Shown piece by piece: positions 3,846 to 27,823 of a stretch of DNA of 36,762 nt. Every line of letters begins with the position of its first letter. Within the stretch, counting starts at the first letter, position 1. The stretch comes from Candidatus Cloacimonadota bacterium (lineage in GTDB: Bacteria > Cloacimonadota > Cloacimonadia > Cloacimonadales > WRIO01). Both the position numbers and the translations under genes were made by a program. The stretch spans positions 1 through 36,762 of the forward strand of contig JAKPKU010000217.1 in the NCBI GenBank assembly GCA_029553545.1, written 5' to 3'. The notes beneath the pieces were generated by a model. It made no database searches. It was not told the DNA's origin and saw only the letters and a program-made list of their open reading frames with translations.

Positions 3846-3945
3846 AGGCATGCATACAATTACTTGAACGTGATTTTACTTAAAATAGGGATACATCCTT
3901 ATAACAAACAAAAATCAATTGATTTTTTACCTAACCAAAATAATG

Positions 3946-3967
3946 TAGGGGCGAGCTTTGCTCGTCA
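3946..3967. repeat. Solo copy of the 22-bp palindromic core
   Basis: TAGGGGCGAGCTTTGCTCGT-CA, identical in form to the units at 288-502. It is followed by a CCGCAACGAAGCGAGGACC motif. It lies 60 bp before the next start codon, as the tandem array does before 542. Confidence 0.85.
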
Positions 3968-4027
3968 GTCCCGCAACGAAGCGAGGACCAAAAATACGAG
4001 GACAAAAAGAGAAAAGAGAGAAGAACA

Positions 4028-5329
4028 ATGTCTAAAAATATTGGAGTTATATTAGCAGGTGGTATAGGTGCGAGATTTCATGGTAATATCCCAAAGCAGT
4101 ATATGAAATTAAATGGGAAAGAAATCATTACCTATAGCATCGAGGCATTTAGAGAAGCTAAGAAGATTGATGAGTTTTTGTGTGTCGTCAATGAAGATGA
4201 GTTTATAAATAAGAATATAAAAGAAAAATATAATGTGAAATGCATCAAGGGTGGCAGTTCGAGAAATGAGTCTTTGGCAAACGCACTGTCGTATATTAAT
4301 GAAATGATCCCAGATTGCAATAAGGTGTTTATTCATGAGGCGGCGAGGCCCTTCATCAAAGGTAGTCTGATAGATAAATATCTTGATTTATTGGATGAAA
4401 ATGATGCGGTGATTACTGCTGCAAAAGTAACTGATAGTCTTGGCTATGTGGATGGAAATATTGCAGATCGTAGCAATTTCTTGTTGATACAGGCACCTGA
4501 GGCTTTCGATTTTCAGCTGTTGAGAAAGCATTTTGATGCAAAGTCAAGTATCACAGCTACCGTGCATCAATTGCCAAGTAGTGTTCGCATATACAATTAC
4601 TATGATTTTAAGTTTAATTTAAAAGTGACTTATCCAGAAGATTTGTTCATAGCCGAACAACTTATTAAACTGAAGTATTACGATAGAAACCATAACTTTT
4701 TGCAACATAAGCTGAGAATATCAAGGAAAAAGGCGTTGATTCTTGGGGCTTCAGGTGGTGTGGGCTCTGTGATAAAGGAGAAGTTTAAAGAGTTGAATGT
4801 GAATATCTTATCTCCTACACGAGAAGAAATAGACTTGGAGACAGTGACTGTTGAGGCTTTGAAAGAATATTGTAAAGATTTTAAACCTGATATCATCATC
4901 AATGCCGCAGCGTTTTCGGCTAAAGACGATGCAGGATTGGTTGCTATGTTTGACAAACTATTCAGTGTTAATTTGAAGTCAAACTTGGTATTGATGGAGT
5001 TTGCTGTGCAATTGAATAAAAAAGTGAACTTGGTGCTGTTTTCATCATCTTCATCGACCAGAGGCAGGAAGGATATTGCCCTTTATTCTGCGGCAAAGGT
5101 AGGAATAAATAGTCTGGTAGAGAGTTTGGCAAATAAGATGCAGGAGCAGGGCGTGTATATAAATGCGATTATCCCTGAGAAGATCAATACGCCGATGATT
5201 CAGAAATTGCATGATGGCAAGGTCAATGAAAGAGAGCTCTTGGATGTGGAATACATTATGGATGCAGTTGTTTTTTACGCTACAACTGACACTTTTGGCG
5301 ATTTGATTCATATTCGCAAAGGTCTGTGA
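4028..5329 (+). CDS. Bifunctional IspD-like cytidylyltransferase / SDR dehydrogenase (Bcs1/Acs1-like, CDP-ribitol synthesis)
   Basis: 433 residues in two domains. Residues 1-225 are an IspD/TarI-type nucleotidyltransferase: LAGGIGARF plus PKQY, and HEAARPF. Residues 235-433 are a short-chain dehydrogenase: Rossmann GASGGVG at 240-246, a Ser-rich strand (FSSSSS), and catalytic Y353-SAA-K357. The order matches Haemophilus influenzae Bcs1/Acs1, which reduces ribulose 5-phosphate to ribitol 5-phosphate and activates it to CDP-ribitol; this exact substrate is inferred. ATG is preceded by GAGAGAAGAAC. The product would feed the TagF-like transferases nearby. It is read in tandem with the HAD gene 9 bp downstream. 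Confidence 0.85.
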   Translation: MSKNIGVILAGGIGARFHGNIPKQYMKLNGKEIITYSIEAFREAKKIDEFLCVVNEDEFINKNIKEKYNVKCIKGGSSRNESLANALSYINEMIPDCNKVFIHEAARPFIKGSLIDKYLDLLDENDAVITAAKVTDSLGYVDGNIADRSNFLLIQAPEAFDFQLLRKHFDAKSSITATVHQLPSSVRIYNYYDFKFNLKVTYPEDLFIAEQLIKLKYYDRNHNFLQHKLRISRKKALILGASGGVGSVIKEKFKELNVNILSPTREEIDLETVTVEALKEYCKDFKPDIIINAAAFSAKDDAGLVAMFDKLFSVNLKSNLVLMEFAVQLNKKVNLVLFSSSSSTRGRKDIALYSAAKVGINSLVESLANKMQEQGVYINAIIPEKINTPMIQKLHDGKVNERELLDVEYIMDAVVFYATTDTFGDLIHIRKGL

Positions 5330-6707: not shown

Positions 6708-7844
6708 ATGAAAAAAAAGATTTATTTATCTTCTCCGCATATGTCGGAGGAAGGGTATGAATTAGAATTTGTGCATGAGACATTTGCATCCAATTGGATC
6801 GCACCTCTTGGAGTGAATGTCGATGAATTTGAAAAAGAAATAGCTGCACGTATGCAGATGAAATATGCTGCTGCTTTGTCTTCTGGGACTGCGGCGATAC
6901 ATTTGGCATTGAAATATCTCGGGGTGGGTGAGGGCGATATAGTCTTCTGTCAGAGTTTGACGTTTTCAGCATCAGCGAACCCGATTATTTATCAAAATGC
7001 AAAACCTGTTTTTATTGATAGTGACTGGGCGACCTGGAATATGTGCCCTGAAGCATTGGCGCAAGCATTTGAGAAGTATGAGAAAATGGGCAAACTGCCT
7101 AAAGCGGTGATAGTCGTGCATTTATACGGGATAGCTGCTGATATAGATAAGATTATGGAGATCTGCAATCATTACCATGTGCCCGTCATTGAAGATGCTG
7201 CAGAGAGCTTGGGCACCACTTATAAAGGCAGACCGACAGGCTCTTTTGGTAAATTTGGCATATGTAGTTTTAATGGTAATAAAATCATCACAACATCTGG
7301 AGGCGGCATGTTAGTCTCGGACGATGAAGATGCGATCAAAAAGGTGCGTTTTTGGGCTACACAGAGTAGAGATCAGGCACGACACTATGAGCACTCTGAA
7401 GTTGGATTTAATTATCGTATGTCAAATGTGTTGGCAGGGATAGGCAGAGGGCAATTGAAAGTACTGGATAAAAGAATTGAAAAGAAGACTCAGATTTTTA
7501 ATTACTATAAAAAGCATTTGGCAGAGCTACCAGGTATTGCTTTTATGCCAGAAAATGAGTGGAATGTTCCAAATTACTGGCTCTCCTGCATTACTCTTGA
7601 TAATGGCGGCGTGCTGACCCAAATGGATATTATTCTCGCGCTGGAAAAAGAAAATATCGAAGCACGACCTATCTGGAAACCTATGCACATGCAACCCTTC
7701 TTTAAAAATTGTGACTATGTCGGCAAAAACGTAGCTGAAAAGATATTTGAAATAGGCGTCTGTTTGCCGTCAGATACGAAAATGACCCAAGAGGATATGC
7801 AAAGAGTAGTGGAGACGATCATCTACTCGCAGCATGTGAAGTAA
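6708..7844 (+). CDS. DegT/DnrJ/EryC1/StrS aminotransferase (PglE/LegC-like)
   Basis: 378 residues, a full-length PLP-dependent sugar aminotransferase. The catalytic lysine is in SFNGNKIITTSGGGML (K192) and the PLP-contacting acid in VIEDAAESLG (D163). The SFNGNKIITTSGGGM block is typical of the PglE/LegC branch, which aminates UDP-4-keto-6-deoxy-GlcNAc on the way to bacillosamine- or legionaminic-type sugars. No 4,6-dehydratase or acetyltransferase lies in the window, so the pathway is incomplete here. The GAAAGAGAG leader gives a plausible RBS. It ends the glycan cluster with a strong terminator 40 bp downstream. Its low similarity to the aminotransferase at 542 shows they are not recent duplicates. 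Confidence 0.88.
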   Translation: MKKKIYLSSPHMSEEGYELEFVHETFASNWIAPLGVNVDEFEKEIAARMQMKYAAALSSGTAAIHLALKYLGVGEGDIVFCQSLTFSASANPIIYQNAKPVFIDSDWATWNMCPEALAQAFEKYEKMGKLPKAVIVVHLYGIAADIDKIMEICNHYHVPVIEDAAESLGTTYKGRPTGSFGKFGICSFNGNKIITTSGGGMLVSDDEDAIKKVRFWATQSRDQARHYEHSEVGFNYRMSNVLAGIGRGQLKVLDKRIEKKTQIFNYYKKHLAELPGIAFMPENEWNVPNYWLSCITLDNGGVLTQMDIILALEKENIEARPIWKPMHMQPFFKNCDYVGKNVAEKIFEIGVCLPSDTKMTQEDMQRVVETIIYSQHVK

Positions 7845-8310: not shown

Positions 8311-8409
8311 GTGCTATGGATAACTACGACCAGGCAAACGTAGGTACAATCTATCTTAGTTGTACCAAATTAAGACTGCAAAAAATCCTTATAAAAAACA
8401 AAAATCATC

Positions 8410-8502
8410 CCTAAACCCGCTCTTAGTAGGCATCTGCTGATTTAGATGAAAATAGTTTTCGGAAAACTCCATTTTGTAAGCCCTATATATATAGAAGGTG
8501 GT
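8410..8502 (+). repeat. ~155-bp dispersed repeat, copy A, first half
   Basis: CTAAACCCGCTCTTAGTAGG to GCCCTATATATATAGAAGG aligns with the first half of the copies at 20860-21015 (same strand) and 36465-36620 (opposite strand). The second half reappears about 330 bp further on, so this copy is split. Confidence 0.8.
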
Positions 8503-8833
8503 GCATGGAAAGTTCAAACAACATGTAAAATTACAGCTTGAAATTGCCTCATTTTCCTATGAAAGAAGATACAATAAACACAAAAATGCCTATTATCAAA
8601 TCTGTTTTCCCTCTCTTTTCATTCATTATCTATTCAGTCTTGTATATGATTATTTATCAAAGATATATCTTAGCGACCCCCCTTACATTCCCCTTGCTAT
8701 CTTGGAGAATTAAAGGGATTATTATTGGAATCTAAAGGGAATGTAACGGAGATTAATTATGAATTTATACAATAAAGAAAAACATCTGTTTTCTTATAGT
8801 AAAGGTGATTGTTAAATTTGCAATTTGAAAATT

Positions 8834-8926: not shown

Positions 8927-9342
8927 CAATATGGTGTTTCTCAATCTAATGCTGGGCGGGCTGTGCGCAATATAGCCGAAGCCTCTCACTCACAGCGAAG
9001 CGTGGACCAAAATGTGCATTGCAGTGAGCAAAATTGCTTACTACAAATTATTTCAAATTTATAATTTTTTAACTTGACAAGATTAAACAGAAATGCTAAT
9101 TTGGTAAATGAGATTTGAAGCTCGGGAGGAGTTTTGGAATTTTGTGATTTAAAGTGCTGCTTTGAGATCCAAGGGTTGACGAGTTTATATAAAGACTTAA
9201 GTATAACTATCAGAAGGGTTTGGATTATTAGCTTAAGACTTATATTTAGCTTGCAATGCCATGCTGAAGACAAAGACTGTAAAACTGAGCATTGTGCTTT
9301 CCCTGCTCTTTTACAAAGAAATATCACAATTATCGCTCTTCA

Positions 9343-9714
9343 ATGATATCCGACAATCAAATGATAATGAAATATCAAAACCAAATGATGAGAAACTATA
9401 ACTTCGAAACTATTGTTAAATCGATGAGCAAACGTTTAAATTTTATTCAGAATAGCTTTATAGATAGTAAGAACACTAATAGCATAAAACCTGAATATAC
9501 ATAAAGACGTAATAATCATGATTTTAATCGTAAACTAAACATTCAAAAGTCATTAAGACAAGGGCAAAAGATGAACATTGAGAGCATACTTGATAACTCA
9601 ATAGTAGAAAAAGCACATTCAAAATCGGTTGAGATCATGGAAATGAGAGAGTATCTTCAAGTCAGTAATCAAATATCTTTTGTAAATGAAAAATTGTATA
9701 GAAGGATTGGTTGA
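9343..9714 (+). pseudogene. Interrupted reading frame of unknown function
   Basis: One frame runs from ATG 9343 (MISDNQMIMKYQNQMM...) to a TGA at 9712-9714 with a single TAA at 9502-9504; the part after the stop (RRNNHDFNRKLNIQKSLRQG...) reads in the same frame. The hydrophilic, helix-prone composition looks protein-like. I recognise no family. It may be a decayed gene just upstream of csm1, or a chance frame. Confidence 0.3.
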
Positions 9715-9759: not shown

Positions 9760-12228
9760 GTGGATAAAGAGAAAATAAGCTTACATGAATTTGTTTTTGC
9801 AGCATTGATGCAAAATATTGGTAAGGTTTTAAAAAGAGCTGAATTGCCGCATGAATCAACGGCTGTAAGCCATGAAGATTATCCTCATGCACCCTGGACA
9901 AATGAATTTTTGGCAAAGAACAAGAACAGTGTGGTATCGGAAGGTATCTGGCAAAGGATTACAAACCTTGCCTCTTTACATTATTCTGATAGTGAAGTGA
10001 ATCCAGAGGATAAGAAATTCCTGATGATGCTAAAAGCAGCAGATCAGATTGCTGCTGACAAAGATGAAAAGTCAAAGCAAGGTAACAAGAACTTGTCTAT
10101 GTATTCAGTATTTCAAGAAATAAGTTTGAAAAGTGATAAAAAAATTAATCATAGTTATGTCTTGCCAATTAAACCGTTATCACCAGAAAACATCAAACCT
10201 GAAAAGATCACGCCTAATTCAAAAGTAAAAGATTACCAAACGCTTTATACAGGTTTTATAACCGAGTATGAGTTACTATCAGAGGAATGGTCGGATCTTA
10301 CTGATTTTCCACGCTTCTTGAGTAGCGTTGACCACTTATTAAAAAAGCACTTTTATTGCGTGCCAAGCAATGTGCAAGAACAATATCCAACAGGATCTTT
10401 ATATCATCACAGCAAAACAACAGCACTAATTGCAGCGACTCTTTATGAGAAATACCATGAACACGAAGGCGAGCTCAGCTTGGAAGATATTAAAAAATCT
10501 ACAGGATATTTACTCATTGGTGGAGACCTGAGCGGAATCCAAAACTATTTATACGATTTAAACCCAGAAAACTCAAAATATAGCGCAAAGCTTCTGAGAG
10601 CACGTTCATTCAAAATAAAAGCACTATCAGATATGCTAATTTTTAAAATCATCAATGAATGTGGGCTTTGTCAACAAAATATCCTCATTAATGCTGGTGG
10701 GAAATTTATCCTATTAGCACCATATTCAGATGATATTAATGAAAAACTAAAAAAGATTCAGCAAGAAGTAGATGAAGCTTTTTATCACGAGTTCCTTGGT
10801 GCAGTTAGTTTAAACATGGACTGGTCTGTTAATGCCAAATTTATGGATTTAAATCAAGAAAACTTTAAAACAACCCTCAGCGAGTTTTTTGATCAACTTG
10901 AGAAAAGAAAATATACACGTTTTAAGAGCAGGTTGACAAATTCAGAAACTGGCAAATGGAATACAACTTCTTTTATCGTCAACAATGAGAAAATTGTTAA
11001 TGACAGCATGTGTAAAATTTGCAATCGGAGACTAAAAAGCCATAATAAAGAGGCATGCCATATTTGCAATAAAGAGATCAACTTGGGAGAAAACTTACCT
11101 AAAAAACAATATATCACTATTGCTATGAATGCTGAAGAACAAGGAAATGTTCAGCTATCTGATATTTCTCTATATTTAGATAGTGAAGAGGGTCTTACAC
11201 CAAGAAAAAATAAGTTTATAAAAGAAGGCATTAACTTTGAAGTATATGCGTATAAGAAAGGCGAAGGAAAAAGATACTTGGCATACCCACTAAAAGCTAC
11301 AGCAGCATATACTCATACAGACAAAGACGGTAGAATTACAGACTTTGAAGTTTTATCTAAGAAAGCAAGCGTAAATTGGGGTGATAAAGGAATAACTGGA
11401 TTACAAGCCAATGCAATAATAAAAGGTGATGTCGATGATTTAGGAGCCATATTCCAAAAAGGACTTGCTAAAGATGACAAGTTGTCATTAGCAAGATATG
11501 TTGCAACTTCATCAATGATGGACTTTTTCTTCTCTGAATACATTCCTTGGCTATTAGAAAATGAATCTGCTCATTTTAACAATGTAAGTATCCCATTTGA
11601 CCCTATTTACACAGTATATACAGGTGGGGATGACTTTTGCCTTGTGGGCCCCTGGCTGAACGTCTTGCTGTTTGCAAAGAGGTTAAGAGATGATTTTGCA
11701 AGCTTTACCTGCAACAATCCGGAAATACATTTCTCTTGTGGTATTGAGCTGCTACACGGAAAATCTCCTGTGAAATATTCTATCGAACAGACAGAAAAAG
11801 CTCTTGGTTTAGCAAAGAAAACACATGACCTAAAATATAAAGAAACATACAAGAATAGCGTATATGTATTTGAAACACTTATTCCGTGGGATGAATACAA
11901 TGACTTTATAAAAGAAGCTGAGACATATTTAAGCTGGTTGCAAGAAAATAATAAAGAAGGTTTTACTACTCAGTTGGCTTATCGCTTATTCAAATACCAG
12001 GAATCTTACATGAAAATAAATTACCGAAAAGAGGGAGAAAAATTTAGCATACGAGATAATTTATATTCAGCTCACATTAATTATGATTTGAATCGTAATG
12101 TTAAAAACAATCCGCTCGTATATAACAGTATAAAAGGATTAACTCAATTTCGCAAAGAAAATAAGATAGATTTTTTTAGGATACTAAAAGCAATACTGCA
12201 CGTTGCTATTTATGCAGATAGAAAATAA
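9760..12228 (+). CDS. csm1: Cas10/Csm1, type III-A large subunit with degenerate HD site
   Basis: Large subunit of the Csm surveillance complex; on target-RNA binding its Palm domain makes cyclic oligoadenylates. The GTG start at 9760 (822 aa) is preferred because AAAGGAGG precedes it by 4 nt; ATG at 9739 (829 aa) has no RBS. The N-terminal HD motif, normally LLHDIGK, reads LMQNIGK (Q18, N19), so metal-dependent ssDNA cleavage is probably lost, although later elements such as SLHYSD and AADQIAADKDE persist. A first palm motif, IGGDLSGIQNYLY, and a zinc knuckle (C418, C421, C433, C436) follow. The cyclase GGDD is intact at 622-625 (YTGGDDFC). It is first in an operon with csm2-csm5; csm2 starts 10 bp downstream. 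Confidence 0.96.
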   Translation: MDKEKISLHEFVFAALMQNIGKVLKRAELPHESTAVSHEDYPHAPWTNEFLAKNKNSVVSEGIWQRITNLASLHYSDSEVNPEDKKFLMMLKAADQIAADKDEKSKQGNKNLSMYSVFQEISLKSDKKINHSYVLPIKPLSPENIKPEKITPNSKVKDYQTLYTGFITEYELLSEEWSDLTDFPRFLSSVDHLLKKHFYCVPSNVQEQYPTGSLYHHSKTTALIAATLYEKYHEHEGELSLEDIKKSTGYLLIGGDLSGIQNYLYDLNPENSKYSAKLLRARSFKIKALSDMLIFKIINECGLCQQNILINAGGKFILLAPYSDDINEKLKKIQQEVDEAFYHEFLGAVSLNMDWSVNAKFMDLNQENFKTTLSEFFDQLEKRKYTRFKSRLTNSETGKWNTTSFIVNNEKIVNDSMCKICNRRLKSHNKEACHICNKEINLGENLPKKQYITIAMNAEEQGNVQLSDISLYLDSEEGLTPRKNKFIKEGINFEVYAYKKGEGKRYLAYPLKATAAYTHTDKDGRITDFEVLSKKASVNWGDKGITGLQANAIIKGDVDDLGAIFQKGLAKDDKLSLARYVATSSMMDFFFSEYIPWLLENESAHFNNVSIPFDPIYTVYTGGDDFCLVGPWLNVLLFAKRLRDDFASFTCNNPEIHFSCGIELLHGKSPVKYSIEQTEKALGLAKKTHDLKYKETYKNSVYVFETLIPWDEYNDFIKEAETYLSWLQENNKEGFTTQLAYRLFKYQESYMKINYRKEGEKFSIRDNLYSAHINYDLNRNVKNNPLVYNSIKGLTQFRKENKIDFFRILKAILHVAIYADRK

Positions 12229-12238
12229 AGGAGGGAAA

Positions 12239-12667
12239 ATGAATCAAAATAGACAAAGCGGAGGACAATGCTCATCTCAAAGACAGGGAGATAGGAAACA
12301 ATGTCCCACTCTAAATGGATTCTTTACAAAAGATGGATTAGTTAACTCATCTTGGATTAGTGAAAAAATTCAAGAATTTGCTGAATTTCTGTCCGCTGAT
12401 CGTAAATTTACAACTACTCAGCTCAGAAATTTTTATCATGAATATTTAAGAATACAAAACATGCCAGCCAAAAAAGAAGAAAAAATAATAATGGTAAAAA
12501 TGATTAAAGCAAAAATAAACTATAAGTCCGATAATGTGCCATATGACTTTATTAAGTTTACTAACAATTTGATTGATGAAATACAAACAAATGAATTATT
12601 CGATAAATATTTCGACAATGCATGTTTGATCATGGAAGCGCTTGTCGCTTATTACCCAAAAAGATAG
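12239..12667 (+). CDS. csm2: Csm2, type III-A small subunit
   Basis: 142 residues from ATG 12239, which follows AAAGGAGGGAAA; the track's longer start at 12203 overlaps csm1 and is unlikely. The helical core includes ISEKIQEFAEFL and the Csm2 hallmark KFTTTQLRNFYHEYLRI. Csm2 multimers line the belly of the Csm filament and contact target RNA. The first ~30 residues are rich in Gln, Ser and Gly (NQNRQSGGQCSSQRQ), a longer disordered lead than is strictly needed. It is 10 bp after csm1 and 8 bp before csm3, clearly co-transcribed. Confidence 0.93.
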   Translation: MNQNRQSGGQCSSQRQGDRKQCPTLNGFFTKDGLVNSSWISEKIQEFAEFLSADRKFTTTQLRNFYHEYLRIQNMPAKKEEKIIMVKMIKAKINYKSDNVPYDFIKFTNNLIDEIQTNELFDKYFDNACLIMEALVAYYPKR

Positions 12668-12675: not shown

Positions 12676-13368
12676 ATGTTAGAAAATAGAGTTATAAAAG
12701 GTTATATCTTATTAAAATCTGGCTTACATATTGGTGGTACCGAGGCAGGAATACATATTGGTGGAATTGATAACCCCGTTATAAAAAACCCTTTAACAGG
12801 ATTGCCATATATTCCAGGCTCAAGTCTTAAAGGTAAAATGAGATTCTTATTAGAACATGCTGAAGGCTTAGTCAAATCTGGCAATATACCAAATTACTCA
12901 GAAAATAATGTCGTTGCTAAAGTTTTTGGACATTTAGAGCATGATAAGCATTTAACTAAACCTACAAGGGTTATTTTTAGAGATTCACATATAATAGGAG
13001 CAATGAAAGAATTTAATATAGAAAATATTCTGGTTGAAGATATTGATCGTGATGTTGATGGTATTAGAGAGAAAATGGGTTCTGATTTTGTTGAAGGTAA
13101 AACGGAAGTTGTTATTGATAGACTATCAGGTACTGCTAAGCGCGGTGGGCTAAGACAAATCGAGCGTGTTTCTGCAGGTACAGTTTTCTCTTTTGAGATA
13201 ACTTTACGATCTTTTGAAGACAATGAGAGTGATAAGCATTTTAAGCTATTAAAGAAAGGATTAAAACTTCTAGAAAACGATGCTTTAGGTGGTTCGGGTA
13301 GCCGCGGAAGTGGTAAAGTTAAATTCTTTGGGCTGACTGATAATGATAAAGAATTCTCCTTAGAATAA
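12676..13368 (+). CDS. csm3: Csm3, type III-A backbone RAMP and target-RNA ribonuclease
   Basis: 230 residues from ATG 12676 (RBS AGGAGGAG); the track start at 12622 lies inside csm2. Cas7-family backbone subunit that coats the crRNA spacer and cuts bound target RNA at 6-nt steps. GGIDNPVIKNP holds the presumed catalytic Asp (D32), followed by YIPGSSLKGKMR, the RNA-binding block of Cas7 proteins. GGSGSRGSGKVKF near the C-terminus is the Gly-rich loop. The retained Asp suggests target slicing is active, which would also switch off Cas10 signalling. Confidence 0.96.
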   Translation: MLENRVIKGYILLKSGLHIGGTEAGIHIGGIDNPVIKNPLTGLPYIPGSSLKGKMRFLLEHAEGLVKSGNIPNYSENNVVAKVFGHLEHDKHLTKPTRVIFRDSHIIGAMKEFNIENILVEDIDRDVDGIREKMGSDFVEGKTEVVIDRLSGTAKRGGLRQIERVSAGTVFSFEITLRSFEDNESDKHFKLLKKGLKLLENDALGGSGSRGSGKVKFFGLTDNDKEFSLE

Positions 13369-13378: not shown

Positions 13379-14377
13379 ATGAAGAATTATGAAATCAAAT
13401 GGTTATTAAAATCGCCTCTTTCAACTGAGTTAGAGAGCGATACTATTTTTGGCCATTTTTGTTGGAGCTATAGGTATCTAAAAGGTGAAGAAAAGCTGGT
13501 AGAGTTTTTAGATAAACTGAAGATAAAAGATATTAGCTTTATTGCATCAAATGGTTTCCAGGATAGGATTCTACCAATGCCGAAGCTGCCTTTAGATGCG
13601 AATGCGAGGGCAAGAATAGAAGATGAACTCAAATTTAGTTACGAGGAAAAGAGAAAAGAAATAAAGGCGATGAATACTATAAAATTATCTGATCTGAAGG
13701 ATTATGTAAATGACTTTTCTCTTGAAAAGCTGATTAGCGCTCATTACAAAGGAAAACTAAACCTATTGCCTGATAACAACAAAATGGCAAGCATTATTAC
13801 TCATAATACAATTAATCGACTTACTGGCACTACCTCTGTGGACATGGAAAATTTATTTAAAGAAATTGTTAATTTTTACCCTGACAATACAACTTTTTAC
13901 TCGTGGGTTAAGACTGAATATTTTAACCTAAAGGAAATGCAAGAAGTATTCACAATTATGAGCCAATACGGCTATGGTAAAAACAAGAATATCGGTAAAG
14001 GAAATTTCGATATTGAAGTAAATGAAATAGAGGAGTTGATCGAAACAACTGATAACATCAATGCTTGGGTCTTATTGTCAAACTGTGTACCCGATGAAAA
14101 TGATACAATTAACGTTATGTACAACAGCAAAGTTAAATTTGGGAAACTCGGTGGTAATGCGGCTCTGAAAAATTCACCGTTCAAGCATCCTATATTTATG
14201 TTGACACCAGGAACAGTTTTCTTTTCAAAACAGCAACCACATGGAACAATCTTAGAAAAAGTACACCCATTTGATGACAAGGTTATACAAAATTTATGTG
14301 CTTATACCATTCCAATCACTATTTCTCAAGATCTTATTGAAAAGATAAATACAAGGGAGGACAAACATGAATGTTAA
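13379..14377 (+). CDS. csm4: Csm4, type III-A RAMP capping the crRNA 5' handle
   Basis: 332 residues, Cas5-family RAMP that binds the crRNA 5' tag and anchors Cas10. Visible features are an N-terminal ferredoxin-like strand (YEIKWLLKSPL), the SDTIFGHFCWSYRYL motif typical of Csm4/Cmr3-like proteins, and a Gly/Lys loop, YGYGKNKNIGKGNF. The C-terminal half ends in a second RAMP fold with HPIFMLTPGTVFF. ATG is preceded by AAAGGAG. It overlaps csm5 by 11 bp, so translation is probably coupled. Confidence 0.94.
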   Translation: MKNYEIKWLLKSPLSTELESDTIFGHFCWSYRYLKGEEKLVEFLDKLKIKDISFIASNGFQDRILPMPKLPLDANARARIEDELKFSYEEKRKEIKAMNTIKLSDLKDYVNDFSLEKLISAHYKGKLNLLPDNNKMASIITHNTINRLTGTTSVDMENLFKEIVNFYPDNTTFYSWVKTEYFNLKEMQEVFTIMSQYGYGKNKNIGKGNFDIEVNEIEELIETTDNINAWVLLSNCVPDENDTINVMYNSKVKFGKLGGNAALKNSPFKHPIFMLTPGTVFFSKQQPHGTILEKVHPFDDKVIQNLCAYTIPITISQDLIEKINTREDKHEC

Positions 14378-15452
14378 AAATTATGAAATAAAGCTAAAAG
14401 TACTATCTCCCTTGCATATTGGCTCTGGTGAAACACTTAATCCTTTAAGATATGTTGTAAAAAATAATATCCTTTATTATCTCAATGAAAGCCAATATAT
14501 CAGAGAACTGTTAAAAACACCGAACTCGCACTTAGAACAAGTTGTTAAAACAGATAATATATATAATATTGTTAATTACTTCGTAGATTGTTTTGACGAA
14601 ACAAACACAGATACTTGGCAACATTCTTATAAAGTCGATAACCAATTTCAACAGGCTTTCGATAAAAACTTGAAAAGTCCTGATAATCAAAATAACTTAT
14701 TTGAATTCTATAGAACTGATCTTTTCAAAACACCTGTAATTCCTGGAAGCTCAATCAAAGGATGCTTTAGAACTGTTATGCTATCTGCAATGCAACGAAA
14801 GCTAAAGATTGAAGATGTTATGGAAGTAGTTGGTGATGGTAAAGAAAAACCTAATTCACAAAAAACTGAAGCGAAAATACTGGGCAACCTAAGCGTAAAA
14901 ATTACTGAAAAGGCAGGGAAGAAGCTGACGCAGACAAGTATCGACGTCGCAAAAGACCCTTTTAAGTATATCAAAATATCTGATATTGCAGTAGGAACCA
15001 GTGCTATGACAGTAAAGAAAATCTTTAATAAAAAAAATAACACTGATGAAGGTATTCCGTACTATGCAGAAATGTTGAATAAAGGAGATTTGGTTTACTC
15101 AGGTACTATGTCTATCGACAGTAGATTTGATATAGAAATAGCAAGAATACTTGGCACAGAACCTGTAAATACCTTTGAGTATTTCCTTAAATCAGCAAAA
15201 GAATATTATTCAAGAGTAATAAGAAAAGATCACGATTGGCTCGAAACAATAAAAAAGGTAGATACAATCAGAGAAATAATTTTACGTTTTAGTGAACTTG
15301 GAGGTAAACCTAATGCTGCGATATTTAGGCTTGGTAAAGGGCAGGGTTGTCACTCTTTGGCATTGAAACCTCTAAATCAAAGCCCCCGTTCAAGAAATCT
15401 CGCAGGTTGGGAACCTATAGGTTGGGTTCAGATCGAATTTAATGAAATATAA
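14367..15452 (+). CDS. csm5: Csm5, type III-A RAMP at the crRNA 3' end
   Basis: 361 residues, Cas7-like subunit at the head of the Csm complex, needed in studied systems for crRNA 3' maturation. LSPLHIGSGETLNP near the N-terminus and VIPGSSIKGCFRTVML are the family signature blocks; RLGKGQGCHSLALKP near the C-terminus is the Gly-rich loop. RBS AAGGGAGGA lies inside the end of csm4. It is the last of the complex genes; a hairpin separates it from the CARF-RelE gene. Confidence 0.94.
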   Translation: MNVKNYEIKLKVLSPLHIGSGETLNPLRYVVKNNILYYLNESQYIRELLKTPNSHLEQVVKTDNIYNIVNYFVDCFDETNTDTWQHSYKVDNQFQQAFDKNLKSPDNQNNLFEFYRTDLFKTPVIPGSSIKGCFRTVMLSAMQRKLKIEDVMEVVGDGKEKPNSQKTEAKILGNLSVKITEKAGKKLTQTSIDVAKDPFKYIKISDIAVGTSAMTVKKIFNKKNNTDEGIPYYAEMLNKGDLVYSGTMSIDSRFDIEIARILGTEPVNTFEYFLKSAKEYYSRVIRKDHDWLETIKKVDTIREIILRFSELGGKPNAAIFRLGKGQGCHSLALKPLNQSPRSRNLAGWEPIGWVQIEFNEI

Positions 15453-15519: not shown

Positions 15520-16620
15520 ATGAAAAATCTATTAATAATAAGCACATGCGGAACAAGTATTCTTACCAACCTAAATAGAGGCGAAGCTCTGCTTTTTAAA
15601 TATTCAAATATCAAGAATATCAGCGAAATAGAGAATGAAGAAGAACGTGAAAGAATACAAAACATACTACAAAATAGTAAAGATAAGATTAATGGGGTTC
15701 AGATAGAAGAAGCTAAAAAACTATCTGCTGAGCTCAATGGCTTATTTACTTATTTCCAAGGCAAACCACCTGCAGGGACTGTTTTATATTTAGTCCCCAC
15801 AGACACACTTTTTGGTAAGTTTACTGCAGGATTAATACAAGATTACTTTGAAAACAGCTGCAATATTAAGCCAATCATGATAGAACAGACAGACCTGCAG
15901 ACTAAAGATCACTATCTCTTTCAAAATGCACTTGGTGAGTTAAGTGATCAGCTAAGTGATATTTATGAAACATCTAAAGAAAACTATGCGATTATCTATA
16001 ATCTCACAGGTGGGTTCAAAAGTGTAAATGCCTTTTTACAGACAGTAGCCCAATTCTATGCAGATGAGAGTTTTTATTTGTTTGAGAGTGCGAAAGAGCT
16101 GATGAGAATACCAAGATTGCCCGTCAAGCTGACTATAGATGATAATATCAAAGAGAATATCAACGCTATCAGAAAGATGGCGCAAGGGCTAACAATCAAA
16201 AAAGAAGAACTTCAAACGCTTACCCCCTTATTCTACTTTGAAATGGAAGGACAATTCTCTTTATCTCTATGGGGTAAATCTCTGTGGAATACGATTAAGA
16301 CAACAATATACTCGGAAAAGCTATGGGATAGTCCAACTGAACTTGTTGTATTTACCGACGAGTTTAAACGTTCAATAAATACGACAAAATTTACAGCGCA
16401 CAGAATCTACGAAATTAATAAGAAAGTCGATGACTTAATGAAGTTTGCTTATGATGGTATTAATCCTGAGTCTCTGGATTGCAAACCTCTACGCGGTAAC
16501 AAACTTGCCCCATCTACTCACGAATGTGATGCTTGGCATGATCAAGATGCAAAAAGGATATATTTTCATAAGGAGGGGAATAAACTCATTCTTGATAAAT
16601 TGGATAAAGCATTACATTAA
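15520..16620 (+). CDS. cami1: CARF-RelE ribonuclease (Cami1-like), type III accessory effector
   Basis: 366 residues from ATG 15520 (RBS AAAGGAG); the track start at 15490 has none. Residues 1-200 form a CARF domain of the Csm6/APE2256 kind: LLIISTCGTSILTN, PTDTLFGKF and the ligand loop NLTGGFKS at 161-168. After a helical linker, residues ~280-366 read as a RelE/ParE-type toxin: helical pair ending DDLMKFAYDG, then CKPLRG, THECDAWH and AKRIYFHKEGNKLIL strands. Known CARF-RelE proteins bind cyclic tetra-adenylate and cleave mRNA at the ribosome. The final gene of the csm operon, it would convert Cas10 signalling into translation arrest. The HEPN domain of Csm6 is absent. The RelE call rests on pattern, not search. 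Confidence 0.8.
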   Translation: MKNLLIISTCGTSILTNLNRGEALLFKYSNIKNISEIENEEERERIQNILQNSKDKINGVQIEEAKKLSAELNGLFTYFQGKPPAGTVLYLVPTDTLFGKFTAGLIQDYFENSCNIKPIMIEQTDLQTKDHYLFQNALGELSDQLSDIYETSKENYAIIYNLTGGFKSVNAFLQTVAQFYADESFYLFESAKELMRIPRLPVKLTIDDNIKENINAIRKMAQGLTIKKEELQTLTPLFYFEMEGQFSLSLWGKSLWNTIKTTIYSEKLWDSPTELVVFTDEFKRSINTTKFTAHRIYEINKKVDDLMKFAYDGINPESLDCKPLRGNKLAPSTHECDAWHDQDAKRIYFHKEGNKLILDKLDKALH

Positions 16621-16626: not shown

Positions 16627-17811
16627 TCAGTTCTCTCTTTTCTTGATTTTAAACAAATCTGCTAAGGTATCATCTATCTTTTCTGGGACAAGGTCAGCAG
16701 GATCAGGAGTTATTATTCTGAACTGTTCTAATCTTTTTTTGACATTATCTGTAGAATATGTCTCTTGATCCAGTGTAAGTAGATATTTTTTAACACCAAT
16801 ACCCATAAGGTTACTCAAGGCGTCGAGCTTGAAGATGGTATCATTTGCAATACTTTTATCATCACTGTCCTTCATTGATGTCTTGCACTCAATGAAATAC
16901 AGCCCATTATCTTTTGTAAATGCTATATCTATTTCATTTGGCAGATTCTCTTGCTTGATGTGAAAACCAGTTTTGATATCAGTTATTGCAAATTGGTTTA
17001 GATGGTGATAAATATACTCTTCAAACCAGCCACCACTAATGTAATCAATCCATTTTTTGGTAATATGTTGTTCTTTTCCCTCAAATTCATTTAGAACATT
17101 CACAATCCTATCTAAAAAAGCATATACATCATCTTTATCTTTTTCAAAAATATCTTTTAAGCTTAATGGTTTAACTGATCGTTGTTTGATCTCAGTGTAT
17201 GAAATCTTCAATTTCTTTTTATCATGAAACTTCTTACGTATTTCTAATAATAATGGGATGTGATCATGAAAGTATTTATCATTATAATAGCCATACATTC
17301 TTTCTGCACATTCCATATTATTAAGAACTGTGGTTTTTTTATTAGGCAAATTAATATTATACGCTTTCAAGTACCCGTTTACAGACAAGCGATAGCCAAT
17401 AGCATTCTCTGAGTGCTTTTCTTCTTTGCTGACTTTATAATAACTATTTTTTCCAATAGCTAAATAAAAAAAGCTTGCTTTTGAATACTCTCTAAAGTGC
17501 TCGTAAATAGCGAGGCTTGTTACTTTTGTACCTCCTGTTAAATTTATCAAATAAGTGCTTTCTTTATCAAAATCTTGATTTTTCAGCTGGTAATAGACAT
17601 CATGGAAACTATCTGCTATTACCTGTACACTATTAATCTTTACATTATTGCCATTGATAAAGTGTTTAATAGAATCAAGTGCCTTGAAATCCTTTTCTGC
17701 CTCTTGGGTGGTAATAATAATCAAATTATCAAAATCATCTTCAAATTGTTTGAGAAATAAGACATTTGGTATCGATTGCTTGCTTAGCGCTATTACAGCA
17801 TATTTTGCCAT
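16627..17811 (-). CDS. can2: CARF-PD-(D/E)XK nuclease (Card1/Can2-like), type III accessory effector
   Basis: 394 residues from ATG at 17811, chosen because GAGGAGGGAAAA precedes it; the track's 411-aa start at 17862 has no comparable RBS. Residues 1-150 form a CARF domain with the INLTGGTKVTS loop at 89-99. Residues ~255-345 are a PD-(D/E)XK nuclease: WFEEY (E264/E265), NEIDI (D295) and FIECK (E308, K310), followed by a Gln-poor C-terminal tail. Card1/Can2 enzymes are switched on by cyclic tetra-adenylate and cut ssDNA, RNA or nick supercoiled DNA. It converges on the CARF-RelE gene with 6 bp between stop codons. It has its own upstream region, with a candidate promoter at 17948-17975. Confidence 0.88.
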   Translation of the reverse strand: MAKYAVIALSKQSIPNVLFLKQFEDDFDNLIIITTQEAEKDFKALDSIKHFINGNNVKINSVQVIADSFHDVYYQLKNQDFDKESTYLINLTGGTKVTSLAIYEHFREYSKASFFYLAIGKNSYYKVSKEEKHSENAIGYRLSVNGYLKAYNINLPNKKTTVLNNMECAERMYGYYNDKYFHDHIPLLLEIRKKFHDKKKLKISYTEIKQRSVKPLSLKDIFEKDKDDVYAFLDRIVNVLNEFEGKEQHITKKWIDYISGGWFEEYIYHHLNQFAITDIKTGFHIKQENLPNEIDIAFTKDNGLYFIECKTSMKDSDDKSIANDTIFKLDALSNLMGIGVKKYLLTLDQETYSTDNVKKRLEQFRIITPDPADLVPEKIDDTLADLFKIKKREN

Positions 17812-20859: not shown

Positions 20860-21015
20860 TCTAAATCCGCTTGTAGAAGGCATCTGCTGATTTAGGTGAA
20901 AATAGTTTTCAAAAAACCTCATTTTGTAAGCCCTATATATATAGAGGGTGATGTTTTTATTTTTGATTCTGCTTTATTCTTTTATAAGCTATTTTGTTTA
21001 CTATGCAACACTCCT
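20860..21015 (+). repeat. ~155-bp dispersed repeat, copy B
   Basis: TCTAAATCCGCTTGTAGAAG to GCCCTATATATATAGAGGG to ACTATGCAACACTCCT. It aligns throughout, at roughly 80% by eye, with the reverse complement of 36465-36620. The first 50 bases can fold (CCTGCT/AGTAGG-type stem enclosed by CTAAA/TTTAG), which suggests a structured element. Confidence 0.8.
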
Positions 21016-21315: not shown

Positions 21316-22500
21316 ATGGCTAAGGAAAAATTTGTAAGAACCAAGCCACACGTCAATGTAGGGACCATTGGTCACGTCGATCATGGCAAGACTACATTAA
21401 CCGCAGCAATCACCAACTATTTAGCAAAAGTTGGCGGTGCAGCTGCCCGCTCTTTCGATAGTATTGACAATGCTCCGGAAGAAAAAGAAAGAGGTATTAC
21501 GATTGCGACATCGCACGTAGAATACCAAACAGAGACTCGTCACTATGCACACGTTGACTGTCCTGGTCACGCCGATTATGTCAAAAACATGATCACAGGC
21601 GCAGCACAGATGGACGGTGCAATTCTTGTTGTTTCAGCAGCAGATGGTCCGATGCCTCAAACACGTGAACACATCTTGCTTGCAAAGCAGGTGGGCGTGC
21701 CAGCTATGGTTGTATTTTTAAATAAATGCGACTTGGTTGACGACCCAGAATTGTTAGAATTAGTAGAACTTGAAGTTCGCGATCTTTTAAGCCAATATAG
21801 CTTCCCTGGTGACGATATTCCTATCGTTAAGGGCTCAGCTTTAAAAGGTTTGAATGGAGATCCAGAAGGTGAAGCAAGCTTAAAAGAATTGATGGAACAA
21901 GTTGACGCTTATATTCCATTACCAGAACGTAGTGTTGACAAACCTTTCTTAATGCCAGTGGAAGACGTATTCTCAATTCCTGGTCGTGGTACAGTTGCTA
22001 CAGGCCGTGTTGAGAGAGGCGTTTTGAAGCTCAATGATAAAGTTGAGAGACTTGGTATTAAAGAGACAATCGAGACAGTATGTACAGGTATCGAGATGTT
22101 CCGTAAAGTTATGGAGCAAGCAGAAGCTGGCGATAATATTGGTGTTTTACTTCGTGGTATCGGCAGAACAGATATCGAGCGCGGTATGGTTTTAGCTAAA
22201 CCTAAAACAATTAAACCTCATACCAAATTCAAAGGCGAAACTTATATCCTTACAGAAAAAGAAGGTGGTCGCCACAAACCATTCTTCAACGGTTATCGCC
22301 CACAATTCTATTTCCGTACAACCGACGTAACAGGAACATTGCATCTTCCAGAAGGCGTTGAAATGATTATGCCTGGTGACAATATCACAATCAGTGCAGA
22401 ACTTATCACCCCAATCGCGATGGAGCAAGGTCTTCGCTTTGCAATTCGTGAAGGTGGAAGAACTATCGGTGCTGGCGTAGTTGGCGAAGTTATTGATTAA
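21316..22500 (+). CDS. tuf: Elongation factor Tu
   Basis: 394 residues, standard EF-Tu length. It is a GTPase that delivers aminoacyl-tRNA to the ribosome. G motifs are clear: GHVDHGKT (19-26), DCPGH, NKCD and [14 protein letters not shown] is the switch I region. Domains 2 and 3 follow, ending [13 protein letters not shown] is GGAGGAA. It sits 9 bp before rpsJ with no terminator, so it heads the S10 operon here. The rpsL, rpsG and fusA genes that often precede it are absent; accessory repeats lie upstream instead. Confidence 0.99.
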
Positions 22501-22509
22501 GGAGAAAAA

Positions 22510-22830
22510 ATGAGTAAAGCTGAAAAAATCAATAGCATAAGAATCAGATTAAAAGCGTATGATTATCGTTTATTAGATAAATCAGTAGCAGAAATTGTAA
22601 AAAATACACGTGATACAGGTGCTAAAATTGTGGGTCCTATCCCTCTACCAACAGAGCGTACCCTTTATACAATATTGAGATCACCTCACGTTAATCGCAA
22701 GGCTCGTGACCAGTATGAAATGCTTGTTCACAAAAGAATGATCGACATTATCAATGCAACTCCGCAAACAACCACCGCTTTGAAGAAACTCAATCTTCCA
22801 GCTGGCGTTCATGTGGAAATCAAAGTATAG
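22510..22830 (+). CDS. rpsJ: 30S ribosomal protein S10
   Basis: 106 residues. S10 is a small-subunit head protein, also the NusE partner of NusB in transcription antitermination. [21 protein letters not shown] and the loop [21 protein letters not shown] are diagnostic. It follows tuf by 9 bp with RBS AAGGAG. No separate leader able to act as an L4-binding attenuator is visible before it. Confidence 0.99.
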
Positions 22831-22841
22831 GGGGATCAGAG

Positions 22842-23459
22842 ATGCTCGGTTTAATTGGTAAAAAAATAGCTATGACTCAAATCTTTGATAAAGATGGCAA
22901 AGTTGTACCTGTGACTGTTCTTGAAGTTGGACCATGTGTAGTGGTGCAAAAGAAAACAACAGATAAAGATGGATACAATGCTATTCAATTAGGTTTTGAA
23001 GAAATAGTCGAAAGAAAAGTTAAAAAGCCTGTTTTAGGGCATTTTAAAAAGCACAATTCAAAAGCGTATCGTTATTTACGCGAATTTAGAATAGATCATA
23101 TTGAAGACTTTTCAGAAGGTCAAGCTTTGGATCTCAATATTTTCCAAGAAAATGAGATCGTAAAAGTTATCGGCACTTCTAAAGGTAGAGGATTTGCTGG
23201 CGTGATGAAACGTCATAATTTTAGTGGCTTTGAAATGGGTCATGGCGTCCATGAAAGCTTTCGTGGCGGTGGATCTATTGGTCAATGCGCAACCCCTGCA
23301 AGAGTATTAAAGGGGCGCAAAATGGCTGGTCACTTTGGCGTTGATCGCGTTACTGTAAAGAACTTAAAAATTGTTAAGCTCGATAAAGAACGCAACCTTG
23401 TGATGATTAAAGGCGCAGTTCCTGGTCATCGTAATAGCCTAATTTACTTGAGCAAATAG
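22842..23459 (+). CDS. rplC: 50S ribosomal protein L3
   Basis: 205 residues, normal length. L3 is an early assembly protein reaching toward the peptidyl-transferase centre. MLGLIGKKIAMTQIF starts the protein, and the central loop GGGSIGQCATPARVLKGRKMAGHFG retains the Gln that is methylated in E. coli L3. ATG follows GGGGGATC. Co-transcribed with rpsJ (11-bp gap). Confidence 0.99.
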   Translation: MLGLIGKKIAMTQIFDKDGKVVPVTVLEVGPCVVVQKKTTDKDGYNAIQLGFEEIVERKVKKPVLGHFKKHNSKAYRYLREFRIDHIEDFSEGQALDLNIFQENEIVKVIGTSKGRGFAGVMKRHNFSGFEMGHGVHESFRGGGSIGQCATPARVLKGRKMAGHFGVDRVTVKNLKIVKLDKERNLVMIKGAVPGHRNSLIYLSK

Positions 23460-23471
23460 TAAGAGGTAACA

Positions 23472-24104
23472 ATGATAGAAGCTATAAAATTTTCAGCAAA
23501 TGGTGAGCAAATCGGCACTGTTAAATTGCCAGAATCACTCTTCGCTGTTACATGTAATAACCCAAAATCACTCCTCTATGAAGTTGTAAAAACTTATTTG
23601 CAAAACCAAAGACAAGGTACAGTTGCAAAAAGAGGACGTGGTGAAGTACGCGGAAGCACAAGAAAGATTTTTAAACAAAAAGGTTCCGGTAATGCGCGTA
23701 TGGGTAATAATAGAACACCAATTAGACGTGGTGGTGGTATGGCTTTTGCCGTAAAACCAAAAGATTGGTATTCTGTAATTCCAAGTAAAAAGAAAAGACT
23801 TGCACTTAAATTAGCTTTGACTGAAAAAGCAAACGATAAGCAAGTTATTATTATTGAGTCACTTAGTTTTGATAAACCATCAACCAAAAGCGCTGTTGAA
23901 TTATTGGGTAAAATTGCACCAGAAACAGGAAAAAAGCTAATGGTCGTTAATGGTTCAGATATAAACATCATCAAATCATTTAGCAATATTCCTCAAATCA
24001 GAATGGATCGCGCAGATGGTTTATATGCTTACGAAGTATTGAATTGCAAATATCTCATCATGACTGAAGAAGCACTAAATAAAGCTGTGGAGGTATTTGA
24101 ATAA
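23472..24104 (+). CDS. rplD: 50S ribosomal protein L4
   Basis: 210 residues. L4 lines the exit tunnel and in enterobacteria autoregulates the S10 operon. The tunnel loop is recognised by RQGTVAKRGRGEVRGSTRK and KQKGSGNARMGNNRTP. RBS is AAGAGGT. Its stop codon TAA shares its last A with the ATG of rplW, a TAATG junction typical of coupled translation. Confidence 0.99.
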   Translation: MIEAIKFSANGEQIGTVKLPESLFAVTCNNPKSLLYEVVKTYLQNQRQGTVAKRGRGEVRGSTRKIFKQKGSGNARMGNNRTPIRRGGGMAFAVKPKDWYSVIPSKKKRLALKLALTEKANDKQVIIIESLSFDKPSTKSAVELLGKIAPETGKKLMVVNGSDINIIKSFSNIPQIRMDRADGLYAYEVLNCKYLIMTEEALNKAVEVFE

Positions 24105-24391
24105 TGAAAAATCCAAGAGAAATAATCATTAGCCCAATATTTACCGAAAAATCAACACAAGCACAGTCTCTTCAGAATGCTTATACATTCAAAGTAAGTA
24201 TCAATGCTAACAAAATTGAAATCAAAAAAGCAATAGAAAAAGTATTTTCAGTTGATGTTGTCGATGTAAACACCATTCGTATGTATGGCAAACCAAAAAG
24301 ATTAGGACGCTATGAAGGTAGAAGACCTAATTGGAAAAAGGCTGTCGTTACCATTAAGAGTGGTCAATCTATTGCAGATTTTGAGATATAA
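24104..24391 (+). CDS. rplW: 50S ribosomal protein L23
   Basis: 95 residues. L23 sits at the tunnel exit and docks trigger factor and SRP. ISPIFTEKST and the KIEIKKAIEKVFSVDVVDVNT core are typical; YEGRRPNWKKAVVTIKSG closes the fold. It overlaps the rplD stop by one base, with RBS GGAGG inside rplD. Confidence 0.99.
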   Translation: MKNPREIIISPIFTEKSTQAQSLQNAYTFKVSINANKIEIKKAIEKVFSVDVVDVNTIRMYGKPKRLGRYEGRRPNWKKAVVTIKSGQSIADFEI

Positions 24392-24405
24392 AGCAGGAGT
24401 AAAAA

Positions 24406-25236
24406 ATGGGAATCAAAAAATATAAACCAGTTACACCTACTATGAGATACCGTACTGGTTACACATTTGAAGAAATTACAAAATCAACACCTGAAAAATC
24501 TTTGATCGTGCCTCTACCACAAAAAGCAGGTAGAAACAATATGGGTCGCATCACAATTCGCAGACGCGGTGGTGGACATAAAAGATTTTACAGAATCATT
24601 GATTTTAAAAGAAATAAAATTGGTGTTCCTGCAAAAGTTGCATCTATTGAATACGATCCAAATCGTACCGCAAGAATCGCATTATTGCACTATGCAGATG
24701 GAGAAAAAAGATATATCCTTGCTCCTGTTGGTTTGAAAGTTGGAGATAGCTTGATGTCAGGTCCAAAAGCTCCAATCGTTACAGGTAATGCATTGCCTTT
24801 AGAAAACATTCCTTTGGGCACTACCGTGCACAATGTTGAATTTACAATGAAAAAAGGCGGTCAGCTTTGCCGTGCAGCAGGAAGCTTTGCACAAGTATTA
24901 GCAAAAGAAGGCAATTATGTACACGTGAAAATGCCATCAGGCGACGTTCATTTAGTACGTAAAGAATGCTATGCAACAATTGGTCAAGTAAGTAATATCG
25001 AACATAATATAATCTGGCTTGGAAAAGCTGGTAGAACACGCTGGTTGGGTAGAAGACCTAAGGTTCGTGGTGTTGCAATGAACCCAGTAGATCACCCAAT
25101 GGGCGGTGGTGAAGGTAAAACCTCAGGTGGTGGACACCCAGTTTCACCTTGGGGCAAGCCTGCTAAGGGTGGTAAAACACGTAACCGTAAAAAATACTCT
25201 AACAAGTATATTATCAAAGCGAAAGTTAAAAAATAG
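24406..25236 (+). CDS. rplB: 50S ribosomal protein L2
   Basis: 276 residues. L2 is a core protein needed for subunit joining and peptidyl transfer. The C-terminal block [19 protein letters not shown] is the hallmark, with the conserved His of NPVDHP. ATG is preceded by AGCAGGAG. There is a 14-bp gap to rplW and 8 bp to rpsS. Confidence 0.99.
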
Positions 25237-25244
25237 GAGAATAT

Positions 25245-25523
25245 ATGGCTCGTTCAATTAAAAAAGGACCTTTCGTTGATGATCATTTGATGAAAAAAAT
25301 ATTTGTTCTAAACGAAGAAAATAAAAAGTCTGTCGTCAAGACATGGTCAAGAAGATCAACTATAACACCAGATTTTATTGGTCATACCCTTGCAGTACAT
25401 AATGGCAAGAAGTTTGTGCCCGTTTATGTAACTGAAAATATGGTAGGTCATAAATTAGGTGAATTTTCTCCTACTCGCACTTATCGTGGACATAAAGAGA
25501 AGAAGAAAAAGGTTGGAAGATAA
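25245..25523 (+). CDS. rpsS: 30S ribosomal protein S19
   Basis: 92 residues, standard. S19 binds 16S rRNA in the head with S13. [19 protein letters not shown] and [20 protein letters not shown] are diagnostic. RBS TAGGAG overlaps the rplB stop. Lys-rich C-terminus as usual. Confidence 0.99.
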
Positions 25524-25534
25524 GGAGTTGATGA

Positions 25535-25891
25535 ATGGAAGACATTAAAAAAACAGAATCAATCGCTAAGTTAAACAATCATCGCTGTTCAGCTCGTAAG
25601 GCAAGATTAGTACTTGACATGATCCGCGGCAAAAGCGTTAATGAAGCTAAAAAAATCCTTCTCTTCTCAAGTAAGAGAGTATCAGAAAGTATTGGTAAAT
25701 TACTTAATTCTGCCGTTGCAAACGTAACCCAGAAAAATGGTAAGATTGAAATCGATAAAATGATTGTAAATAAAGCATTTGCAGATGAAGGCGCAACAAT
25801 GAAAAGATTTCGCCCCAGAGCTCAAGGCCGTGCAACTGTAATAAGAAAAAGATCATGCCACATTACTATCGGCATTGCAGAAAAAGAATAG
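25535..25891 (+). CDS. rplV: 50S ribosomal protein L22
   Basis: 118 residues. L22 spans the large subunit and its beta hairpin lines the exit tunnel near L4. CSARKARLVLDMIRGKSVNEA is typical, and the C-terminal FRPRAQGRATVIRKRSCHITI forms the tunnel hairpin. RBS AAGGAG. A short N-terminal extension (MEDIKKTESIAK) precedes the core. Confidence 0.99.
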   Translation: MEDIKKTESIAKLNNHRCSARKARLVLDMIRGKSVNEAKKILLFSSKRVSESIGKLLNSAVANVTQKNGKIEIDKMIVNKAFADEGATMKRFRPRAQGRATVIRKRSCHITIGIAEKE

Positions 25892-25900
25892 GGGGAACCT

Positions 25901-26557
25901 TTGGGACAAAAAATTAATCCTAATTTATTTCGCCTTGGTATCAACAAAACACACCAATCTGTCTGGTATAGCGAAGGCAAAGAATATATTCAGAACTTAC
26001 ATGAAGATTTGAAAATAAAGAAATATATTAAGAACCGTTTAAAAGGTGCAATGACATCAAATGTTGTAATCGCTCGTAAAACCAACTCAATAAATATCGA
26101 TATCCATACAGCAAGACCTGGTCAAGTAATCGGTAGAAAAGGTGAAGCTATTGATGCATTGAGAGCGGAAATAACTCATATGATAAACAAAAACCGTGAA
26201 ACACCTATTACGGTGTTCATTAATATTAATGAAATTAAAAAAACATGGCTCGACGCAAGATTAGTGGGCGAAGAAGTCGCTCGCCAATTGCAAGAACGTG
26301 TGTCCTTCCGTAGAGCAATGAAACAAGCTATTAGAAACTCACTTAAAGATGGTGCTCTTGGCATCAAAATCCAATGCTCAGGCCGTCTTGGTGGAGCTGA
26401 AATGGCTCGAACAGAACGTTATCAACAAGGTAGAACCCCATTACAAACTTTGCGTGCAGATATTGATTACGCTATCGTAGAATCCCTTACTACTTACGGT
26501 ATAATCGGAATTAAAGTCTGGATATACAAGGGTGATATCTTGAGCAAGGAGATTTAA
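25901..26557 (+). CDS. rpsC: 30S ribosomal protein S3
   Basis: 218 residues. S3 forms part of the mRNA entry site and has helicase activity in the ribosome. The start is TTG at 25901, fixed by the canonical N-terminus [14 protein letters not shown] and by GGGGGAA upstream. The KH domain is seen at [48 protein letters not shown] is the C-terminal signature. 9-bp gap to rplV. Confidence 0.99.
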
Positions 26558-26559
26558 GA

Positions 26560-26979
26560 ATGTTAGCACCAAAAAAAGTTAAATATAGAAAACAAATGAA
26601 GGGCCGTAGAGCCGGCTTAGCTTACACAGGATGCAATGTAAGCTTCGGAGACTTTGGTTTAATCGCTACAGAAGCTGGCTGGATTAATAGCCGTCAGATT
26701 GAAGCTGCCCGTGTTGCTATAACAAGACATATGAAGCGTGTAGGTCGTGTTTGGATCAGAATATTCCCAGATAAACCTGTTACTTCAAAACCTGCTGAGA
26801 CTCGTATGGGTAAAGGTAAAGGCGCTCCAGATCACTGGGTAGCAGTTGTAAAACCTGGTAGAGTTTTATTTGAACTTGAAGGCGTGAGCAATGAAGTTGC
26901 TCGTGAAGCAATGCGTCTTGCAAGCCATAAATTGCCTGTAACAACAAAAGTGATAGCACGCGAGGGAGTAGAACTATGA
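26560..26979 (+). CDS. rplP: 50S ribosomal protein L16
   Basis: 139 residues. L16 contacts A-site tRNA and helps organise the 5S region. [17 protein letters not shown] at the start and [22 protein letters not shown] in the middle are diagnostic; the loop arginines are retained. Only 2 bp separate it from rpsC, and its ATGA end overlaps rpmC. Confidence 0.99.
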
Positions 26980-27179
26980 AAAGCGCAGAATTACGCGATT
27001 TAACATTAGAAGATTTGAACAAAAGAATTGAAGACTTAAAAGAAGAACTTTTTAACCTTCGCATTCAAAAAGTACGTAATCGTCTCGAAAATACATCTCG
27101 TATCCGCGATGTACGCCGCGATGTTGCTCGTGCTTTAACCGTATTAACCGAAAAAAATAATGCAAGTAAGAGGTCCTAA
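26976..27179 (+). CDS. rpmC: 50S ribosomal protein L29
   Basis: 67 residues, two-helix hairpin near the tunnel exit. [31 protein letters not shown] and [19 protein letters not shown] are typical. Start overlaps the rplP stop (ATGA) and its own stop abuts rpsQ, so three genes are tightly coupled. Confidence 0.98.
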
Positions 27180-27434: not shown

Positions 27435-27445
27435 GGAGTCTAACC

Positions 27446-27814: not shown

Positions 27815-27823
27815 GAGTCAGAA

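Follow-up and report, generated by a model that had tools for sequence, protein, structure and literature searches.

The type III-A CRISPR module described here is best read as a chromosomal system in which the HD DNase of Cas10 has been lost by residue replacement, and in which defence would rest on cyclic oligoadenylate (cOA) signalling together with RNA cutting by Csm3, using guides supplied from elsewhere. A probability of roughly two in three is assigned to this reading. The module lies within the 36,762-nt stretch analysed here (hereafter the window), which constitutes one contig (C44) of a draft genome totalling 2.88 Mb. A Cas10 with a dead HD site and an intact cyclase is a correct finding but belongs to a kind that is already well known and common; what is more unusual about this locus is the relic of a cas6 gene beside an otherwise intact operon. 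The original prediction for this sequence had proposed the loss of the HD motif and defence through signalling and Csm3, but included neither the relic nor a third replacement in the HD domain, H75Y.

The Cas10 protein and its HD site

The cas10/csm1 gene (9760..12228, forward strand) encodes 822 amino acids from a GTG codon and is matched by TIGR02578, PF22335 and PF18211, with a score of 554 bits (E 7e-166) for the first of these, the NCBIfam Csm1 model. This GTG (9760), which follows closely on an AGGAGG, is a plausible start; the longest mechanical ORF starts at an ATG at 9739. The translation of this gene reads ...FAALMQNIGKV..., and residues Q18 and N19, encoded by CAA (9811-9813) and AAT (9814-9816), stand in place of the His-Asp motif. 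In the alignment, Tyr75 (9982..9984) replaces the second histidine of a conserved His-His pair that is present in 71 of 75 sequences. The GGDD cyclase motif at residues 622-625 (11623..11634) is intact in both the translation and the alignment, as had been predicted, and alignment with relatives shows that the Palm DxD motif is also kept, as D557 and D559.

The genome is a draft of 268 contigs, and an error of sequencing or assembly might be suspected behind the Gln-Asn pair. Such an error would need at least three separate base substitutions, in two adjacent codons and in codon 75, within a frame that is otherwise clean and without stops, and the changes all fall at functionally linked positions; this explanation is scarcely credible.

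Relatives of the window's Cas10 were collected from 107 genomes searched at the order level, and from GTDB genomes scanned with two peptide patterns, the best 80 being ranked by overall similarity. Both patterns lie outside the HD domain, so that they introduced no selection on the HD motif themselves, although the ranking took the overall similarity into account. No close Cas10 was found in a family-level search (4 genomes). The closest relative available is about 41% identical, and the nearest named relatives, from Candidatus Cloacimonadota, are roughly a third identical, which makes this phylum the probable host. Among the 75 Cas10 sequences with a covered N-terminus, His-Asp is present in all 74 relatives, and Gln-Asn is found in the window alone. 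At least 90% of the other Cas10s agree at each of ten HD-domain positions, and the window differs at three of these (H18Q, D19N and H75Y), compared with two of 51 conserved positions in the rest of the protein (Fisher p = 0.028).

A FastTree phylogeny, constructed from Cas10 sequences without the HD domain, groups the window's protein in a clade of ten (SH-like support 100) together with sequences from Cloacimonadota and from genomes of its own order. The HD motif is present in all nine other members, and the simplest reading of this tree is that the loss occurred on the window's own long branch. Whether close relatives share the Gln-Asn change had been raised with the original prediction; the nine other members of this clade do not share it.

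The consequences of these replacements can be gauged from characterised homologues. The HD site of Lactococcus lactis Csm1 consists of His13, Asp14, Asp80 and His206, and a D14N substitution was introduced in structural work to guard against degradation of bound nucleic acids (PMC8964682). In a profile alignment, read together with the alignment of relatives, these four residues correspond to Q18, N19, D95 and H217. In LdCsm, ssDNase activity is strongly impaired by H15A/D16A (PMC7214462). Given the counterpart of D14N in the window and the impaired LdCsm HD mutant, it is very likely that the window's Cas10 is without HD DNase activity.

An AlphaFold model of the protein (mean pLDDT 89.4, pTM 0.91) has a mostly well-folded HD domain, and its best fold match in the PDB is L. 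lactis Csm1 (9ash_A), with a TM score of 0.86 by target length. Judged from this model, the HD site is lost, whereas the domain around it persists as a folded scaffold. The alignment with Csm1 proteins that was proposed as a check with the original prediction is in its favour, with Gln-Asn at the place of His-Asp. D95, H217, H43 and H74 are all still present, and retention of these four conserved His/Asp positions in a folded domain would be compatible with a weak residual metal site, and even with one that still cleaves DNA, with Gln-Asn or neighbouring residues acting as substitute ligands. However, two of the four L. lactis HD-site residues are replaced, one of them by the activity-stopping change itself, and the ssDNase of LdCsm suffers strongly when both HD residues are mutated, which makes residual cleavage very improbable.

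The Csm operon, its effectors and its surroundings

Csm1 to Csm5 are encoded in order in one operon and all five score above the NCBIfam cut-offs, which identifies the system as type III-A (Csm). On the forward strand, cas10 is followed by csm2 (12239..12667; PF03750 and TIGR01870, likely ATG start), csm3 (12676..13368; TIGR02582, 197 bits), csm4 (13379..14377; TIGR01903) and csm5 (14367..15452; TIGR01899). The catalytic Asp32 of Csm3 is present and is conserved in all five aligned sequences, those of the window and four relatives. The number of promoter-like sites upstream of cas10 is no higher than the level in shuffled sequence.

Two genes for CARF effectors complete the module. The first (15520..16620, forward strand; likely ATG start, longest ORF from 15490) encodes a Cami1-like CARF-RelE protein. 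Its ORF is matched by the PADLOC CARF_RelE model PDLC01934 with 335 bits over positions 13-376 of 376 amino acids, the CARF part is matched by PDB entry 8phb, and identity to relatives is 35-39%. The second (16627..17811, reverse strand; likely ATG start, longest ORF from 17862) encodes a Card1/Can2-like CARF-PD-(D/E)xK protein, with PF23400 and PF09002 above cut-off. It aligns with Card1 (PDB 6wxw; E 5e-21), including the NEID...IECK region, and the nuclease residues E293, D295, E308 and K310 are kept. Characterised Cami1 is activated by cA4 and cuts mRNA on the ribosome, and characterised Card1/Can2 is activated by cA4 and cuts both DNA and RNA (PMC11229360).

The presence of two CARF effectors had been taken to fit the loss of the HD nuclease. 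This association was dropped, as the same pair adjoins an intact HD motif and an intact cas6 in a Cloacimonadota locus from UBA4175 (L025), and Cami1 is found beside an intact HD motif in two further loci (L026 and L027).

In the proposed mode of action, a guide-loaded Csm complex would bind a foreign transcript, which Csm3 would cut, while cyclic oligoadenylate synthesis would take place at the Palm GGDD site. As both effectors are cA4-activated in their characterised forms, the messenger is probably cA4. The messenger would switch on the Cami1-like protein, leading to mRNA cutting on the ribosome, and the Card1/Can2-like nuclease, leading to cutting of DNA and RNA, so that any damage to DNA would come from Card1/Can2 and not from Cas10. 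With the module's own cas6 a pseudogene (see below), the cell would supply guides from a different array, processed by a different enzyme. The predicted defence without DNase draws support from the HD changes, the intact cyclase motif, Csm3 and the effectors, as seen in sequence and model, and from a direct experimental precedent in Serratia marcescens; its weaker part is the guided complex, which the original prediction had assumed.

Downstream of the module, positions 21316-36368 encode EF-Tu, ribosomal proteins (L3, L5 and S4 were matched), SecY and the alpha subunit of RNA polymerase. The module adjoins this core ribosomal-protein cluster and is therefore considered chromosomal. An interpretation of the downstream region as a prophage was dropped in view of the same tuf, ribosomal protein, secY and rpoA genes.

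A dispersed conserved repeat of about 108 nt, with the core ...GTAGTAGGCATCTGCTGATTTAGRTGAAAATAGTTTTCGAAAAAC...CCCTATATATATAGAGGGTG, is found at 8396-8503 (+), 20861-20953 (+) and 36527-36622 (-). The copies at 8396 and 20861 were considered as bounds of a mobile island, an idea that was dropped because 41 copies, at 84-100% identity, are among the matches listed genome-wide (116 candidates, 40 scored). Rfam has no match in the window, this repeat included. Copies of a short palindromic unit, GTAGGGGCGAGCTGTGCTCGTCAG, lie head to tail at 283-519 and 3938-3984 with a spacing of about 37-40 nt, and other parts of the window hold related copies. Positions 4028-5329 form a single frame in which an IspD-type cytidylyltransferase is fused to a short-chain dehydrogenase. 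This fusion lies among genes of surface-polysaccharide type, which include those for two DegT aminotransferases (542-1633 and 6708-7844).

The cas6 relic and the supply of guides

In all eight of the Cloacimonadota loci examined, an intact Cas6-like gene is located directly upstream of cas10. None of the NCBIfam models matches this gene in the relatives, and it was named Cas6 from its place, its length and a glycine-rich C-terminal motif. In the window, the corresponding region holds two parts of such a gene, both on the forward strand. The N-terminal part (9137..9322) covers positions 2-63 of a profile built from the eight intact relatives (E 1.7e-4) and is also detected by tblastn with four single relatives' Cas6 sequences (7e-6 to 9e-7). 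The C-terminal part (9361..9693) covers positions 170-281 (profile E 3.2e-14; tblastn 1e-10 with the Cas6 of locus L024). It is in another frame than the N-terminal part and contains one in-frame TAA, and its conserved glycine-rich segments are eroded. About 107 positions (codons) of the Cas6 model are missing between the two parts. A control search with reversed sequence gave nothing below 0.16. With a frameshift, a stop and a deletion, the cas6 gene of the window is, by its sequence, a pseudogene.

No further Cas6 was found in the draft assembly with PF10040, TIGR01877 or the relatives' profile, and the 36,762-nt window contains no CRISPR array. With the module's own cas6 ruined, no other Cas6 match and no array at hand, either the guides have another source or the locus is in the first stages of decay. 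The draft assembly may simply lack a shareable Cas6, and coexisting systems are known to share one Cas6 (PMC11127173).

Another contig of the assembly (C247, L010:1-4529) carries type I cas3, cas1, cas2 and cas4 together with an array edge whose repeat is GTTTCAATCCTTGATTTGATGGATAGATAGAGATAAAC. The assembly contains a single full copy of this repeat (at most 3 mismatches), perhaps because arrays were collapsed during assembly. As to the type I subtype, a search of the genome with PF01905 gave no match, and the Cas1 of this contig reaches no subtype-specific model cut-off. In a second genome of the same genus (G001), one contig (C55, L003:110-2318) holds a different, partial Cas10-like sequence with GGDD, followed by RAMP-like proteins, which suggests that a further type III system exists in the genus.

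It is possible, and is suggested here only tentatively, that this III-A alarm module still works although it has lost its DNase as well as its own Cas6. Its guides would then have another origin in the cell, through borrowing from the type I array or through maturation by a host RNase with no Cas6 involved. Csm-type guides with the repeat tag GTTTCAATCC...AAAC would speak for such borrowing.

The other outcome is that the locus is decaying, the loss of cas6 having removed its guides and relaxed selection, with the HD changes as early drift in a dead system. The frameshift, stop and deletion in the cas6 relic would fit this course of events, as would the lack of another Cas6 match in the assembly and of an array in the window. 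However, the seven csm and effector frames, 7,962 bases in all, are open. At the rate seen in the relic (at least 2 lesions in 519 bases), about 31 small lesions would be expected in these frames, on the assumption of equal age and a single rate free of selection for all genes, and none is seen, which argues against a long-dead locus. The catalytic residues of Csm3, the cyclase and Card1 are also kept, and the changes in the HD domain fall on catalytic positions and are not random. Decay is on balance rather unlikely, and the reading of a signalling module that has lost its DNase and takes its guides from elsewhere is preferred.

Comparison with known type III-A systems

Of more use is the question, prompted by the cas6 relic, whether a type III complex can survive once its own guide-processing gene is gone, and by what means. 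The Cas10 itself is a clear natural example of loss confined to the HD site, in a clade whose other members retain that site. In a survey of 1,113 type III loci, a recognisable HD nuclease was present in 39% of all loci and in 65% of those of type III-A, and a cyclase domain in 92% of Cas10s (PMC11229360). The HD-less III-A Cas10s of that survey, about 35% of III-A loci, resemble the window in having a cyclase and no recognisable HD nuclease. The window differs from them in that the domain is kept and is predicted to fold, with only the site lost, in a clade where nine others keep HD.

The structurally characterised Csm1 of L. lactis (6xn3 and 9ash) has the same domains as the window's protein, and the chain in 6xn3 carries the D14N substitution at the position of N19. 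Unlike the window's protein, wild-type L. lactis Csm1 has an active HD site; it makes mainly cA6.

The III-A system of S. marcescens combines, like the window, a Csm complex with a degenerate HD site and an intact cyclase, and its interference needs cOA, NucC and Csm3 but not HD (PMC13060164). It differs in keeping the histidine (H17) of the HD motif and in using NucC as its effector, where the window has Cami1 and Card1/Can2.

The UBA4175 locus L025 has the same gene order as the window (cas10-csm2-csm3-csm4-csm5-cami1-card1), but its HD motif and cas6 are intact, an array adjoins the operon, and card1 is on the same strand as the other genes. Comparison of the window with L025 could help to show what the HD DNase adds in a system that has both Cami1 and Card1/Can2.
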